Source of the DNA: Acidobacteriota bacterium
GTDB taxonomy: Bacteria; Acidobacteriota; Terriglobia; Bryobacterales; Bryobacteraceae
Direction of reading: 5' to 3'
NCBI GenBank assembly: GCA_029776225.1
Contig: JAKOTR010000054.1
Span: 62,001 to 126,000, forward strand
Length of the DNA stretch: 64,000 bases
Shown: one piece after another, positions 27,646 to 33,734 of the stretch
Layout of the letters: the number at the start of each line of letters is the position of its first letter
Numbering within the stretch: position 1 is the first letter of the stretch
Notes under the pieces: generated by a model
The model's input: only the letters and a program-made list of their open reading frames with translations
Databases searched by the model: none
What the model was told of the DNA's origin: nothing
Made by a program: the position numbers and the translations under genes

Positions 27646-29298
27646 ATGAACGTAAGTCCGCTTGCCGGGCATCCCCCAAAACCGGAGATGCTGGCCAACA
27701 TTCCCCGGCTCGTTACCGCCTATTACACCGGGCATCCTGACGTCTCCAATCCCGCTCAGCTCGTTTCCTTCGGCACTTCCGGGCACCGCGGATCGTCGCT
27801 CACGAATTCCTTCAACGAAGATCATATCCTGGCGATCAGCGCGGCCATTTCGAGCTACAGGAAACAGCAGGGGATAGATGGACCGCTGTTCCTGGGCATG
27901 GACACGCACGCGCTTTCCGAACCGGCGTTCGCGACAGCGCTGGAGGTGCTCGCGGCCGCCGGCGTTGAGGTAATGATCGACCAGGATCTCGGTTACACGC
28001 CCACTCCGGCGATCTCGCACGCGATCCTGACTTACAACCGCGGGCGCTCGTCCGGCCTCGCCGACGGCATCGTGATCACTCCGTCGCACAATCCGCCAGA
28101 GGACGGCGGCTTCAAGTACAACCCTCCGCACGGCGGACCGGCCGATACCCACGTCACGAGCTGGATTCAGAACGAAGCCAATCGCCTGCTTGCCGCCGGC
28201 ACGCGGAACATCGCCCGGATGCCGTTCGAAAGGGCGCTCCGCGCCTCCAGCACCCACCGCCACGATTACGTCTCGGCCTATGTGAACGACCTCGGCTCCG
28301 TGGTCGATCTGGACGCGGTGCGCGATGCCCGCATCGAGCTGGCGGCGGACCCGCTCGGCGGCGCCGGCGTGGCGTACTGGGGCCGGATCGCGGAACGCTA
28401 CGGGCTGAATCTCACCGTCCTTAACGACAGCGTGGATCCCACCTTCCGCTTCATGACCGTGGACTGGGACGGCAAGATCCGCATGGACTGCTCGTCGCGC
28501 TACGCCATGGCCGGGCTGATCGCGCTCAAGGACCGCTTTTCGCTCGCCGTCGCCTGCGACACCGACCACGACCGCCACGGCATCGTCACACGCAGTTCCG
28601 GGCTGATGAATCCCAACCACTACCTCACCGCCGCGATCTGGCACCTGTACCGGAACCGCGCCGGCTGGCCTCCCGGAGCGGGGATCGGCAAAACGGTGGT
28701 GAGCAGCAGCATGATCGATCGCGTCGCGGCTTCGCTCGGCAGGCGGCTGGTGGAGACCCCGGTCGGGTTCAAGTGGTTTTCGCCAGGACTGCAGGACGGC
28801 TCGCTCGGGTTCGGCGGCGAAGAGAGCGCCGGGGCATCGTTCCTGCGCCGGGACGGGACCGTGTGGACCACCGACAAAGACGGCATCATTATGGGCCTGC
28901 TGGCGGCTGAGATTCTCGCCCGCACGGGGCGCGATCCCGGCGAACTGTATCACGATCTCACGCGCGAATTTGGCGATCCGGTCTACGAACGCATCGATGC
29001 CCCGGCGACGCCCGCCGAAAAAGCCGTGCTCGCGAAGCTCTCCGCCGCACAGGTCAGGGAAACAGAACTCGCGGGAGAGAGAATCCAGCAGGTCCTCACC
29101 CACGCGCCGGGCAACGGAGCCCCTATCGGAGGCGTGAAAGTCATCACGGCCAACGGCTGGTTTGCCGCCCGCCCCTCGGGCACGGAGGACGTCTACAAAA
29201 TCTACGCCGAAAGCTTTCTCGATACTGAACACCTCCGCCGCATCCAGGAGGAAGCACGGGAGTTGATCGCCAACACGCTATCCGGAGTTGATGTATGA
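27646..29298 (+). CDS. pgm: Phosphoglucomutase, alpha-D-glucose specific
   Basis: A 550-residue enzyme of full length. The phosphoserine loop is ITPSHNPPEDGG (Ser near 147), the metal loop is CDTDHDRHG, the sugar loop is GGEESAGAS and the phosphate loop is RPSGTEDVYKIYAES. It interconverts glucose-1-phosphate and glucose-6-phosphate in the cytoplasm. It is followed by an esterase (10 bp) and then galT, so it fits a Leloir-type route for galactose, and it could also supply UDP-glucose for the glucan synthase at the left of the window. Confidence 0.96.
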   Translation: MNVSPLAGHPPKPEMLANIPRLVTAYYTGHPDVSNPAQLVSFGTSGHRGSSLTNSFNEDHILAISAAISSYRKQQGIDGPLFLGMDTHALSEPAFATALEVLAAAGVEVMIDQDLGYTPTPAISHAILTYNRGRSSGLADGIVITPSHNPPEDGGFKYNPPHGGPADTHVTSWIQNEANRLLAAGTRNIARMPFERALRASSTHRHDYVSAYVNDLGSVVDLDAVRDARIELAADPLGGAGVAYWGRIAERYGLNLTVLNDSVDPTFRFMTVDWDGKIRMDCSSRYAMAGLIALKDRFSLAVACDTDHDRHGIVTRSSGLMNPNHYLTAAIWHLYRNRAGWPPGAGIGKTVVSSSMIDRVAASLGRRLVETPVGFKWFSPGLQDGSLGFGGEESAGASFLRRDGTVWTTDKDGIIMGLLAAEILARTGRDPGELYHDLTREFGDPVYERIDAPATPAEKAVLAKLSAAQVRETELAGERIQQVLTHAPGNGAPIGGVKVITANGWFAARPSGTEDVYKIYAESFLDTEHLRRIQEEARELIANTLSGVDV

Positions 29299-29308
29299 TT
29301 TTGACGCT

Positions 29309-30421
29309 ATGAACCGTGCTGTATTGATTGCTTTCGCGGCCGCCCTTCCCGTGCTGGGCCAGGCGCCGCGCCCGATCATTTCTCCCGAAGTCCACCCGGA
29401 CCGGAGCGTGACGTTCCGGTTCCGCGCCCCCAACGCCCAACAGGTCTTTCTCGCCCGCGAAGGCGCGGAGCGAATTGCCATGCAGAAGGACGAGAACGGC
29501 GTGTGGTCCGTGACCACAGGCCCGCTCGAACCGGATCTCTACGGCTATACGTTCGTAGCGGACGGCGTCGCGTACCTCGATCCCGCCAACACGCTGATGA
29601 AGCCCAACCTGCTCAACGTTCAGAGCATGGTGCATGTGCCCGGCCCGCCCTCCTTGCCCTGGGAGGTGAATAACGTGCCGCACGGCACGATCCACCGGCA
29701 CTTCTACAAGTCGGAGATCGTTGGCGATGAACGCGACTTTTTCGTTTACACCCCGCCGGGGTACGACCCGAAGGCAAACAGGCGCTACCCAGTGCTCTAC
29801 CTGCTTCACGGCTTCAGCGATGACGCCAGCGCATGGACCGCGGTCGGGCGCGCTCACGTGATCATGGACAACCTGATCGCCCAGGGCAAGGCAAAGCCCA
29901 TGATTGTGGTCATGCCGCTGGGCTATGGCGCGCCGGAGATCGTTTCCCGCACCGGGCAGGGAATGCGCGGTCCAGAACTTCGTGAGCGCAACTTTACCCG
30001 GTTCCGCGAGGCTCTGCTCAAAGAAGTGGTGCCAATGGTCGAGAAGACCTACTCGGTGGATACCAACCGCGCCGCGCGCGCCATCGCCGGACTCTCGATG
30101 GGCGGCGCCGAGTCGCTCCTTACCGGCCTCAATGCGATCGACCGCTTCGCCTGGGTGGGCGCGTTCAGTGCCGGTGGTGTGGGCGAAGACTTCAACGCCG
30201 CCTTCCCCAAGCTCGACGCAAAGGCGGCTTCGCAACTGCGCCTGCTGTGGATAGCCTGCGGCACGGAGGACCGCCTCATCGACGGCTCTCGCAAGTTTGT
30301 CGCGTGGCTGAAGAGCAAGCAAATCGAGCCGGTGTGGGTCGAAACTCCCGGCGCGCACACCTGGATGGTGTGGCGGCGCTATCTGGCCGAGTTCGCTCCT
30401 CTTCTGTTTACGGGAAAGTGA
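29309..30421 (+). CDS. Secreted alpha/beta-hydrolase esterase (paralogue of the one at 5019)
   Basis: A 370-residue protein with a signal peptide (RAVLIAFAAALPVLG), an E-set/CBM48-like domain with VTFRFRAPNAQQVFL, and an esterase domain. The nucleophile motif is GLSMGGAES (Ser near 262) and the catalytic His is in GAHTWMVW near 350. HGTIHRHFYKS and DFFVYTPPGYDPK match the paralogue's [11 protein letters not shown] and [12 protein letters not shown]. It probably removes acyl groups from plant polysaccharides. The start at 29309 leaves 10 bp after pgm; an ATG at 29288 would overlap it. A 20-bp tandem duplication covers the stop codon. Confidence 0.85.
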   Translation: MNRAVLIAFAAALPVLGQAPRPIISPEVHPDRSVTFRFRAPNAQQVFLAREGAERIAMQKDENGVWSVTTGPLEPDLYGYTFVADGVAYLDPANTLMKPNLLNVQSMVHVPGPPSLPWEVNNVPHGTIHRHFYKSEIVGDERDFFVYTPPGYDPKANRRYPVLYLLHGFSDDASAWTAVGRAHVIMDNLIAQGKAKPMIVVMPLGYGAPEIVSRTGQGMRGPELRERNFTRFREALLKEVVPMVEKTYSVDTNRAARAIAGLSMGGAESLLTGLNAIDRFAWVGAFSAGGVGEDFNAAFPKLDAKAASQLRLLWIACGTEDRLIDGSRKFVAWLKSKQIEPVWVETPGAHTWMVWRRYLAEFAPLLFTGK

Positions 30422-30516: not shown

Positions 30517-31548
30517 ATGTTTGACTGGAAACAGCAGCCGCACCGCCGGTATAACCCGCTCACCGGAGACTGGGTGCTGGTGTCGCCCCACCGCACCCAG
30601 CGACCCTGGCAAGGTCAGGTGGAAGCAACTCCGAAGGCGCAGCAACCGGCCTACGATCCCGAGTGCTATCTCTGCCCGGGGAACGCCCGCGCGGGCGGCG
30701 TGCGCAATCCCGCCTACACTACCACGTTTGTCTTCGACAACGACTTCGCCGCGCTGCTTCCCTGCACCGAACCCGGCCGGTTCGAAGAAGGCCGGCTGCT
30801 GATCGCCGAAGCCGAACCGGGCATCTGCCGCGTGGTCTGCTTCTCTCCCCGCCACGATCTCACCGTTGCGCAGATGGACCTCCCGGCATTGCGGCGAGTA
30901 GTCGATACCTGGATTGAGCAGTACGAGGAACTCGGCGCGCGCCCGTCCATCAATCACGTGCAGATTTTCGAAAACCGCGGCGCGATGATGGGCGCAAGCA
31001 ACCCGCACCCTCACTGCCAGATCTGGGCCAATCGCATTATTCCCAACGAGCCGCTTAAGGAGCAGCAGGCGCAGGCGGCGCACCTCCGCGACACCGGGCA
31101 ATGCCTCCTGTGTGAATACGCCGCCATCGAGTTGAGAGCCGCCGAGCGCATCGTGTGCCGCAACGAATCGTTCATCGCTTTGGTTCCGTTCTGGGCCGTT
31201 TGGCCGTTCGAGACACTCGTGCTCTCCACGCGCCATCTCGCATCCATCGAACAGTTGAGCGACCGCGAGCGGGACGATCTCGCCGGAATCCTCAAGCGCC
31301 TCACCAGCCGGTACGACCGCCTGTTCCAGGTCTCGTTCCCCTACACCATGGGTTTTCACCAGCGGCCCACGGACGGCTTGCCGCACGAGGAGTGGCACTT
31401 CCACGCGCACTTCTACCCGCCGCTGCTCCGCTCGGCAACCGTCCGGAAGTTCATGGTGGGATACGAAATGCTCGCGATGCCGCAGCGCGACATCACGCCT
31501 GAGAGTGCGGCGGAGCGCTTGCGGGCACTCGCGGAGGAAAACGAATAG
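30517..31548 (+). CDS. galT: Galactose-1-phosphate uridylyltransferase
   Basis: A 343-residue HIT-superfamily enzyme. The N-terminus ([17 protein letters not shown]) and zinc ligands in CYLCPGN are typical. The active site is NPHPHCQIW near residues 161-169, whose second His is uridylylated, and [16 protein letters not shown] gives the second zinc/His region. It swaps galactose-1-phosphate with UDP-glucose to give UDP-galactose and glucose-1-phosphate, the pgm substrate. The gene follows pgm and the esterase; galK and galE are not seen in the window. An ATG at 30517 has no strong ribosome site. Confidence 0.95.
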
Positions 31549-31565: not shown

Positions 31566-33734
31566 ATGCTGCGGCGTCACTTTCTCGGTGGCTCGGCCGC
31601 CGCGCTCTTGCGGAAACCATCCCCGGCAGAGCAGCCTTTTCCGGAGAGCTGGTTCAAGTCCCCGGTCATTCACGCGCCGGACGATCCCGCCGAATGGCCC
31701 GCCTGGCGCGAGAAGCTCACGCTCTGGCGGCGCGAGGCGAAAGCTCGCCTGAACTACGACGATTCTCTTTACCGCCGCGACGATTTCGCATGGGTCCCCT
31801 CGTCGTTCGCCTGCTGTTTTCTGATGCTGTTCGACGAGAAGTTCCTCAACCGCGAACGGGGCACGTACATGGTCGATGAGTTCCTGGACGAGGGCGAGCG
31901 CGAATTCGGCGGCTGGGATTCGGTCGTCCTGTGGCACGCGTATCCCAGAATCGGGCTGGACGAGCGAAACCAGTTCGATTTTTACCGCGACATGCCGGGC
32001 GGCCTCGACGGGCTTCGTGAAGCCACCCGCCGCTTCCAGGCACGCGGCGTCAGGGTGTTCCTGAATTACAATCCCTGGGACACCGGCACCCGCCGGGAAG
32101 AAGTCTCCGACATCGACGCCCTGGTCCGGCTGGTGCAGTCGCTCGGAGCGGATGGAATTTTTCTCGACACCCTGCACCGGGGTTCGGCCGAATTCCGCGC
32201 CAAACTGGATTCCGTCAGGCGCGGCGTCGTCCTCGAAAGCGAACTCGAACTGCCGCTGGAAAACGTAAAGGACCATCACATGTCCTGGGCGCAGGGCTTC
32301 ATCGACAGCCGTGTGCCCGGCGTGCTGCGGAACAAGTGGTTCGAGCGCCGCCACATGCAGCACCAGATCCGCCGGTGGAACCACGACCACACGGACGAAC
32401 TGCACGCCGCCTGGATGAACGGCAGCGGCATCATGGTCTGGGAAAACGTATTCGGCAGTTGGGTCGGCTGGAACGCCCGCGACCGCTCGATCCTGCGCTC
32501 GATGCTGCCCATCCAGCGGCGGTACTGGCAACTGTTTGCCGGCGAGGGCTGGACGCCGCTGGTGCCAACGGAAATGCCCGGTGTCTATGCCAGCCTGTGG
32601 GAGCTGGGCGGGATCCGGCTTTGGACGGTGGTCAACCGCACCCAGGAACAGCGCGAGGGCGTCGTCATTCGCGCGCCGCATGTCGAGCGGGCGCGCTACT
32701 TCGACCTGATTCGCGGCCGGGAGATCAAGGCGTCTCCTAAAGCGGGCGCCGTCCCTCTGCCCGGCTCAATCCGGCCTCGAGGTATCGCCTGTTTTCTGGC
32801 CGCGGCCGGTCCCTCACTGGGGCCGGACTTCGAGCGCTTTCTGCAGGCGCAGGCCGCCATCGACGCGCGCGCCGACTTCAGAGCGGGGTTCCCCCGGCGC
32901 CAGGTGTCTCCCAGGCTGCTAGGTTCCAGAGCCAGGGAACGGGGAACGCTCGAGGGAATGGTCGAGATTGGACCTGCGCGCTACACGATGACGGTGGAGT
33001 TCCGGGTCCGCGAAACGGGTTTCTACACCGGTCAGGAGTACTGCGAGTCGGTCACAAATCCAGGCCCTCCCGTGCAAGACTACCGCCCGGCGAGCGGCGC
33101 GCGGATGTTCCAACTCGACCGGCTGAAACGCCAGGTAAAGTTAGCCCCATACGCCATCGACCTGACGCCCGTCACGAACGCCCAGTTCGCCGAGTTCCTC
33201 AAGCGCTCCGGTTACCGGCCGAAGCGCACGGCGAATTTCCTCCGGCACTGGAAAAACGGCGCGCCGCCCCCGGGTTTGGAGGACCACCCGGTAGTCTGGG
33301 TGGACCTGGACGATGCCCGCGCCTACGCCGCCTGGGCCGGCAAGCGGCTCCCCACCGAAGAAGAATGGCAGTATGCCGCTCAGGGGCCGGACGGCTTGCG
33401 CTACCCCTGGGGCAACGCCATCAGGCACGGAGTGTGCAATGCAGGCCAAACCGGCGGAACCACGCCGGTCAAGGCCTTCCCCGGCGGGCGCTCCCCGTTC
33501 GGCTGCTGGGATATGTGCGGCAATACCTGGGAGTGGACGGAAAGCGAACGCAGCGACGGCCGGACGCGGTTCGCCATCATCCGCGGCGGCTCGTATTTCG
33601 AAGCCAGGGGATCCCGCTGGTACATGGATGGCGGCCCTCAGCCGTGCAACTTCGCCGCCAAGATGATCCTGATATGGCCGGGACTGGACCGCTGCTCCAC
33701 TATCGGGTTCCGGTGCGCCGTCTCATTGCTGTAA
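31566..33734 (+). CDS. TIM-barrel hydrolase-like protein fused to a formylglycine-generating-enzyme-like domain
   Basis: A 722-residue, probably exported protein (leader MLRRHFLGGSAAALL, Tat-like). Residues 40-400 resemble a glycosidase TIM barrel: GVRVFLNYNPWDTGTR, LGADGIFLDTLHRGS (a candidate catalytic Asp) and VVLESELELP. Residues 520-722 are a C-type-lectin-like FGE/sulfatase-modifying fold: DLTPVTNAQFAEFLKRSGY, WAGKRLPTEEEWQYAAQG, GNTWEWTES and GFRCAV. The two cysteines used by FGE for catalysis are not in place (GGSYFEARGSRWYM stands there), so this domain may bind rather than modify. It lies 17 bp after galT and may act on the same glycans. The exact GH family is not recognised. Confidence 0.72.
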   Translation: MLRRHFLGGSAAALLRKPSPAEQPFPESWFKSPVIHAPDDPAEWPAWREKLTLWRREAKARLNYDDSLYRRDDFAWVPSSFACCFLMLFDEKFLNRERGTYMVDEFLDEGEREFGGWDSVVLWHAYPRIGLDERNQFDFYRDMPGGLDGLREATRRFQARGVRVFLNYNPWDTGTRREEVSDIDALVRLVQSLGADGIFLDTLHRGSAEFRAKLDSVRRGVVLESELELPLENVKDHHMSWAQGFIDSRVPGVLRNKWFERRHMQHQIRRWNHDHTDELHAAWMNGSGIMVWENVFGSWVGWNARDRSILRSMLPIQRRYWQLFAGEGWTPLVPTEMPGVYASLWELGGIRLWTVVNRTQEQREGVVIRAPHVERARYFDLIRGREIKASPKAGAVPLPGSIRPRGIACFLAAAGPSLGPDFERFLQAQAAIDARADFRAGFPRRQVSPRLLGSRARERGTLEGMVEIGPARYTMTVEFRVRETGFYTGQEYCESVTNPGPPVQDYRPASGARMFQLDRLKRQVKLAPYAIDLTPVTNAQFAEFLKRSGYRPKRTANFLRHWKNGAPPPGLEDHPVVWVDLDDARAYAAWAGKRLPTEEEWQYAAQGPDGLRYPWGNAIRHGVCNAGQTGGTTPVKAFPGGRSPFGCWDMCGNTWEWTESERSDGRTRFAIIRGGSYFEARGSRWYMDGGPQPCNFAAKMILIWPGLDRCSTIGFRCAVSLL

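Follow-up and report, generated by a model that had tools for sequence, protein, structure and literature searches.

The stretch analysed here, called the window throughout, comprises 64,000 nucleotides of an Acidobacteriota genome (contig JAKOTR010000054.1, positions 62,001 to 126,000), and the gene under study is a plus-strand open reading frame (ORF) at 31566..33734, stop codon included. It encodes a fusion protein of 722 residues that joins a barrel-type front half to a C-terminal domain resembling the formylglycine-generating enzyme (FGE), an architecture conserved in its relatives; the coordinates and length agree with a preliminary description made from the letters alone. The N-terminal 25 residues (31566..31640) contain the twin-arginine motif MLRRHFLGG and form a probable signal of the twin-arginine translocation (Tat) type, uncertain for this copy. 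The barrel region as aligned spans residues 63-387 (31752..32726) and, judged from alignments, profile comparison and a structural model, would comprise a (beta/alpha)8 core like that of glycoside hydrolase (GH) family GH13 and the start of an all-beta region. The latter, at about residues 328-414 (32547..32807), resembles domain C of GH13 and GH27 and is the best-modelled part of the protein, with block means of the predicted local distance difference test (pLDDT) of 60-93. The FGE/SUMF1-like domain occupies residues 519-717 (33120..33716). The window genome contains a single copy of the fusion, and a second match in it covers the FGE part only. The barrel-FGE family to which this protein belongs is real and widespread, and none of the libraries searched has a name for it.

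The preliminary description had proposed separate profile searches of the two halves. These place FGE-sulfatase (PF03781) at residues 519-684 with an E-value of 4.4e-41, past the Pfam cut-off, and leave the front half without a significant match. NCBIfam models for SenA, EgtB, GldK, OvoA and PvdO also align with the window protein, all far under their cut-offs; the equivalog thresholds of EgtB/SenA-type synthases are missed by a wide span (SenA 75.8 against 420, EgtB 68.6 against 360). The PDB sequence nearest to the C-terminal domain is SUMF2, a human protein without FGE activity. EgtB, PvdO, SenA and SUMF2 all lack the FGE cysteine pair, and it is ordinary for FGE-like domains to occur outside true FGE, as the matches to these four proteins illustrate; the premise that such domains normally occur alone or with kinases and act on sulfatases therefore requires correction. 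The unusual part of the fusion is its front half, not the FGE-like domain. Among the matches listed for PF03781, 20 longer proteins were fetched, and four of them belong to the barrel-FGE family.

The two catalytic cysteines are absent from the FGE-like domain, as the preliminary description had claimed, and the absence extends to every domain of the family that is readable there. Canonical FGEs of the same class (L155-L159) carry the pair as C...SYC in the loop after RGGS/KGGS in five of five cases. In the alignments the corresponding loop of the window protein (33600..33623) holds E679 and R684, followed by the invariant W685-Y686. None of the 56 readable fusion domains, the window copy included, has a catalytic cysteine at either position, while the Trp-Tyr pair in the replaced loop is present in all 56. 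The stretch from RGGS to GFRC is about nine residues longer in the fusion proteins than in true FGE. The domain end is kept, with P705, D708, R709 and GFRC in 55 of 55 readable sequences; C717 is invariant, but belongs to the GFRC end that true FGE also has. No new invariant Cys/His cluster takes the place of the cysteine pair, and no histidine appears among the listed domain invariants.

These observations bear directly on whether the fusion could be a formylglycine-generating enzyme for sulfatases or other proteins, with the barrel as a targeting domain, which we regard as extremely improbable. The window genome offers potential substrates, with 16 sulfatase-domain matches (some being pieces of one gene) and a Cys-type signature in all five inspected; no canonical FGE was found in this genome, and its only other PF03781 protein (L148) reads as EgtB. 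The missing cysteine pair nearly refutes such an activity, and no sulfatase occurs among the annotated neighbours. Two radical S-adenosylmethionine (radical-SAM) sulfatase maturases over their cut-off are encoded in the same genome, so there is no need to invoke the FGE-like domain of the fusion for the sulfatases. Sulfatase activation was rejected as a function on the grounds of the absent cysteines and these maturases. In a reading of the frames, an EgtD-like ORF adjoins L148, pointing to ergothioneine synthesis there.

The FGE-like domain is better conserved than the barrel, with mean pairwise identities of 56.6% and 43.9% across 36 sequences (L012, L017, L005 and L055, which are broken or cut, were set aside). 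The preliminary description had suggested that the domain may have become a sugar- or protein-binding module; conservation of this order appears unlike that of a loosely attached binding module, and part of it may be ordinary for the fold, the comparison being limited to the fusion proteins. A tree was built from 35 fusion and 28 other FGE domains, and a single branch separates the fusion domains from all others in 96% of the 200 bootstrap replicates; support for that branch (93/50) is not firm, and the EgtB-like row forms a long branch. The tree excludes L012, L017, L011, L019, L002 and weak or short non-fusion domains. Among the loci of the 40-barrel set, FGE domains scoring at least 250 bits against the A3 profile, one of the alignments A1-A3 of 19 sequences (17 of the 29 loci L005-L033, the window copy and L003), occur only behind a barrel, and the best domain without a barrel reaches 127. 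The FGE-like part might instead be a working enzyme of another chemistry, oxygen- or metal-dependent and directed at a sugar or at the barrel, with the barrel supplying the substrate; its higher conservation and its kinship with EgtB, SenA, OvoA and PvdO, proteins that use other substrates, would suit this. The proposal nevertheless appears unlikely, given that the cysteine pair is missing in all 56 domains with neither a replacing cluster nor an invariant histidine, and that EgtB-type enzymes hold their metal site in another domain.

The front half was described at the outset as belonging to no named family, and library searches uphold this. A Pfam search of the window protein up to E = 1 shows only FGE-sulfatase and nothing on the barrel; when the 19 members are searched singly against Pfam and NCBIfam, no model matches the barrel significantly, the nearest hint being GHL6 in two of the 19 (best E 0.18). 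The 19-sequence barrel profile likewise finds nothing significant among PDB sequences, where the best hit, at E 0.013, is a designed protein. The barrel is well defined by its own residues. Invariant in all 60 sequences are W76, G115, D118, W123, G130, D132, R134, Q136, PGG144-146, W171, D172, D196, G197, D201, T202 and E226. D132, R134 and Q136 constitute the DxRNQ motif after strand 2 (31959..31973), and W171-D172 the NPWD/MMWD motif after strand 3 (32076..32081). D201-T202 at the end of strand 4 (32166..32171) contains the candidate nucleophile, and E226 (32241..32243), probably at the end of strand 5 in a region where the model is unreliable, is the candidate acid/base. These motifs were common to 40 distinct sequences from the same phylum, Planctomycetota, Bacteroidota and Pseudomonadota, and to 60 with a later batch; a chance ORF is thereby excluded by the sharing of motifs across phyla.

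The family is frequent close to home and scattered beyond it. With residues 27-440 as query, 54 of 200 sampled genomes of the same bacterial family give matches, two of them weak (G517, G524), and with residues 1-522, 32 of 396 sampled genomes of the phylum do so, one weakly, the window genome being counted in both. Twenty matches besides the window were examined for architecture in the family search; of the 33 matches in the phylum search, G256 and the weak G339 (9.1e-4, internal stops) were left out of the examination. Relatives outside the phylum occur in Planctomycetota, Bacteroidota and Alphaproteobacteria. They comprise a Planctomycetota metagenome-assembled genome (L003, the sole locus from a contig scan with the single window protein) and two plasmid members, in Spirosoma and Sphingopyxis, annotated SUMF1/EgtB/PvdO; a plasmid search with the relative L014 returned the same two full-length members among the best 10 of 210 records. 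Scans of IMG/VR viral contigs added two distinct contigs, one with L054 and L056 and one with L055. From a reading of the ORFs, the L054 fusion is flanked by genes for a BipA/TypA-like GTPase and a GH2-like protein, and this contig looks bacterial.

The FGE-like domain follows the barrel in the same frame in 39 of 40 barrel ORFs of the first set, the remaining one being cut by a contig end, and at 58 of all 60 barrel loci; the exceptions are L221, with the domain in a neighbouring frame, and L055, which a contig end truncates. The preliminary description had raised the question of whether the fusion is common and described. It is common, as the 58 loci demonstrate, but no description emerged from the papers searched, full-text searches of PubMed Central having given nothing on a barrel-FGE fusion. 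Frame breaks were observed within the FGE-like domain of L012 and L017 and before that of L221, representing sequencing error or decay, and the contig of L005 is cut within the domain. In the subgroup L022-L033 the barrel is preceded by at least about 230 additional N-terminal residues, without a significant Pfam match in the three members scanned.

Profile comparisons by local hhalign, covering 48 profile pairs, give their best score with one GH13 group. The alignment of the 19-row barrel profile with the four GH13 sequences of this group (L140-L143) reaches 84.7% probability (E 6.7e-6) and covers strands 3 to 5; in it D201 falls on the nucleophile Asp and E226 on the acid/base Glu, with the same spacing of 25 residues as between GH13 regions II and III. 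In 30 column shuffles the maximum was 0.3%, none near 84.7%, and the reversed profile likewise remained below; twelve other single proteins (other TIM barrels, other glycosidases and a kinase) gave at most 0.9%. The preliminary description had called the barrel glycosidase-like and singled out the DT of FLDTLHRG for alignment with a GH nucleophile. The alignment of D201 and E226 with the catalytic pair of one GH13 group favours this, but other GH13 groups and single sequences respond weakly.

Several results weigh against a GH13 relationship and must be read alongside this alignment. The score is the highest of 48 pairs; two further GH13 groups reach only 3.1% and 3.9%, and three narrower barrel profiles score 3.0-24.9% against L140-L143. 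Taken singly, these four sequences give 25.0, 12.4, 0.6 and 0.3%, with the top two spanning strand 3 only. The real profile also exceeds all 30 shuffles for each of six target groups, GH36 included, and the shuffle test therefore indicates barrel-type order rather than GH13 in particular. GH13 enzymes carry an arginine two residues before the nucleophile, and the corresponding position 199 shows none in 60 sequences (N 35, F 11, V 7, I 5, M 1, Y 1). The region IV Asp of GH13 sits at strand 7; no third carboxylate was identified there, where the model is unreliable and which the GH13 alignment does not reach. In the model itself, the blocks holding D201 and E226 have pLDDT values of 49 and 42. 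The best Z of a structural comparison with VIA-align, described below, is also to be read against the tool's note that best Z values of 7 to 8 are common without a clear match, and a root-mean-square deviation (rmsd) near 14 with a poor model means that the fold is tested in part only.

The AlphaFold model, built from four sequences, has a mean pLDDT of 57.6, with the second half of the barrel mostly below 50; a model from two sequences (pLDDT 49.9) was too poor to use. Foldseek with the four-sequence model ranks maltogenic amylases and neopullulanase first (7.9e-11, TM-score 0.26), followed by trehalose synthases, alpha-amylases, GH27-type alpha-galactosidases and CD98hc, and VIA-align gives a best Z of 9.2 over 274 residues with an rmsd of 14.1. 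A family missing from these fold-match lists is not thereby excluded. The profile and fold searches, which are partly independent of each other, appear to point to a single superfamily, but this is not proof of GH13 membership. The barrel could alternatively belong to clan GH-D (GH27/31/36) or to the DUF6259/GHL6 group and use another acid/base, an assignment we consider improbable. The GH27-type entries in the fold list suit it, as do matches above shuffles to DUF6259 (75.9%, 61 columns) and GHL6 (38.6% at best), both shorter than the GH13 match. GH36 groups, however, reach at most 14.9% and two narrower DUF6259 groups 1.6% and 7.6%, neither DUF6259 nor GHL6 is matched by the 19-row profile as far as E226, and the D-to-E spacing follows GH13 regions II and III.

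The window copy is probably exported, as its N-terminus suggests. The preliminary description had called it exported, and the twin-arginine motif in this copy and its subgroup agrees with that, but the segment is weakly hydrophobic (the best mean over 12 residues is 0.86). The motif recurs in all 10 same-phylum members of the subgroup that were read, the start of L213 being uncertain. The N-terminal signal test applied to the window copy, which considers ATG-type starts only, was passed by 23 of 40 members against 0 of 483 internal methionine windows. The Sphingopyxis copy (L058) appears without a signal peptide in this test.

At the window locus, the fusion gene is preceded on the same strand by pgm (27646..29298; phosphoglucomutase, TIGR01132 896.1 bits, cut-off 778.05), an esterase with a CBM48-like N-terminus (29288..30421; Pfam and NCBIfam) and galT (30517..31548; TIGR00209 478 bits, cut-off 102.1), and it starts 17 bases past galT, directly after pgm-esterase-galT as first described. 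The top NCBIfam likeness of the esterase is a xylanase/feruloyl esterase model, with a score far under the cut-off. Gene neighbourhoods of relatives were counted at 43 loci with a called barrel gene, over up to about 8 kb per side (12 kb for plasmids) and with some stretches shortened by contig ends; L048, where an antisense ORF is called over the barrel, was not counted. Receptor-type outer-membrane protein genes lie in the examined stretch at 14 of the 43 loci, a GRP-type sugar transporter (RhaT/GlcU-like) at 10, and ADP-ribosyl-GH genes at two (L003, L243). LacZ over its cut-off adjoins one relative (L034), GH127 and GH106 are each near single relatives and GH28 near two, and LacI regulators also occur near relatives. 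The pgm-esterase-galT context recurs at none of the 42 other loci, some of which lie on short contigs, and most of the 20 loci from the same bacterial family share no operon. The role in glycan use that had been suggested from that context consequently stands in part: relatives do lie beside outer-membrane receptors, a sugar transporter, ribokinase and glycoside hydrolases, but the gene order that prompted the suggestion is seen at the window locus alone among those compared. A galactose role deduced from pgm and galT is weakened by this, LacZ being adjacent to L034 only.

The receptor genes also accommodate a different view of the whole protein, in which a non-enzymatic barrel of GH13-like fold, comparable to CD98hc/4F2hc, makes it a glycan-binding partner of an outer-membrane receptor. 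CD98hc, a GH13-like non-catalytic protein, is among the fold matches of the model, and of the two parts the barrel is the less conserved. We judge this rather unlikely: eight pocket-type residues, including D201 and E226, are invariant in 60 of 60 sequences, where a barrel used only for binding would be expected to lose some, and the Sphingopyxis copy seemingly has no signal peptide.

A ribokinase-like gene lies directly upstream on the same strand at 11 of the 43 loci. Nine of these belong to one bacterial family, f2, which has eleven loci in the count (L035-L045) and where the typical order is LacI regulator, OMP_b-brl_4 receptor, RhaT/GlcU-like transporter, ribokinase and fusion; the other two are L230, in the bacterial family of the window, and the Sphingopyxis plasmid locus L058. 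All four f2 kinases tested exceed the NCBIfam ribokinase cut-off. The Sphingopyxis fusion protein shares 50.8% identity with an f2 member and falls inside the f2 clade, so its operon may have the f2 origin, although its kinase is only 35-42% identical to f2 kinases.

Our preferred reading, held with confidence slightly better than even, assigns the protein to an unclassified GH13-like family of exported glycoside hydrolases or transglycosidases that carry a fixed non-catalytic FGE-like module, as sequence comparison and the model suggest. The front half would consist of a (beta/alpha)8 barrel backed by an all-beta domain and be a distant relative of GH13. In it, D201 would act as the likely nucleophile, attacking the anomeric carbon in a retaining double displacement, and E226 as the likely acid/base, protonating the leaving group and then activating water. 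The invariant or nearly invariant DxRNQ and (N/M)xWD motifs could line the pocket and hold the sugar. The FGE-like domain, having presumably lost its oxidase chemistry, may serve as a fixed module that recognises the substrate or completes the pocket, and the invariant Trp-Tyr in place of the catalytic loop would be suited to stacking on a sugar. After Tat- or Sec-type export, the released sugar might be imported and then phosphorylated, a step for which one group of relatives would use a ribokinase-type kinase.

Owing to that kinase, the foremost guess at a substrate for the f2-type group is a pentoside, which might be a riboside. Counting against its extension to the family, ribokinase is found at only 11 of 43 loci, nine of them from one bacterial family, and the window locus has galT and no ribokinase. 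The kinases of L058 and L230 fall under the cut-off (259.8 and 253.4 against 299.65), and L058 is hardly independent of f2, since it lies within that clade. With the ribokinase loci mostly from f2, the pentose reading leans on one bacterial family and one or two separate cases. The stronger proposal is of a new GH family, spread over at least four phyla, that would cleave ribosides or related pentosides, with the FGE-derived domain built into a composite sugar pocket; it is a speculative one that we consider doubtful.

If the protein is an enzyme, its own bacterial family frequently carries (54 of 200 sampled genomes, two of the matches weak) a glycosidase family that is invisible to Pfam and NCBIfam. 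With its front half nameless, the protein is labelled by the FGE-like tail alone, as a 'SUMF1/EgtB/PvdO family nonheme iron enzyme', which is probably misleading. The barrel-FGE family may mark an unrecognised bacterial route to feeding on sugars, and the fixed fusion of a cysteine-less FGE fold, together with the ribokinase neighbours in one group, makes a direct biochemical test possible. The novelty would lie in a GH13-like barrel combined with a recycled FGE fold, with a predicted activity.

The protein can be compared with several known families. With GH13 (PF00128) it appears to share a barrel backed by an all-beta domain and, in the alignment with one group, the strand-4 Asp and strand-5 Glu. 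It differs in that the Pfam model misses the family, no arginine precedes the nucleophile (0 of 60), and the DxRNQ and (N/M)xWD motifs and an attached FGE-like domain are present. GHL6 (PF14871) and DUF6259 (PF19773) resemble the barrel at a sub-threshold level along strands 2 to 4, but their Pfam models do not detect the family. SUMF1/FGE (PF03781) corresponds to the C-terminal domain (4.4e-41), including the GFRC end and the WAGKRLPTE core, whereas the fusion lacks both catalytic cysteines and has a longer RGGS-to-GFRC stretch with the invariant Trp-Tyr. SUMF2 (pFGE, PDB 1y4j) is the nearest solved sequence to the FGE-like domain, but stands alone without a barrel. EgtB/SenA/PvdO-type proteins belong to the same domain superfamily, and two plasmid members carry the annotation 'SUMF1/EgtB/PvdO family nonheme iron enzyme'; unlike them, the window protein shows no other Pfam domain up to E = 1, and its front half is a barrel.

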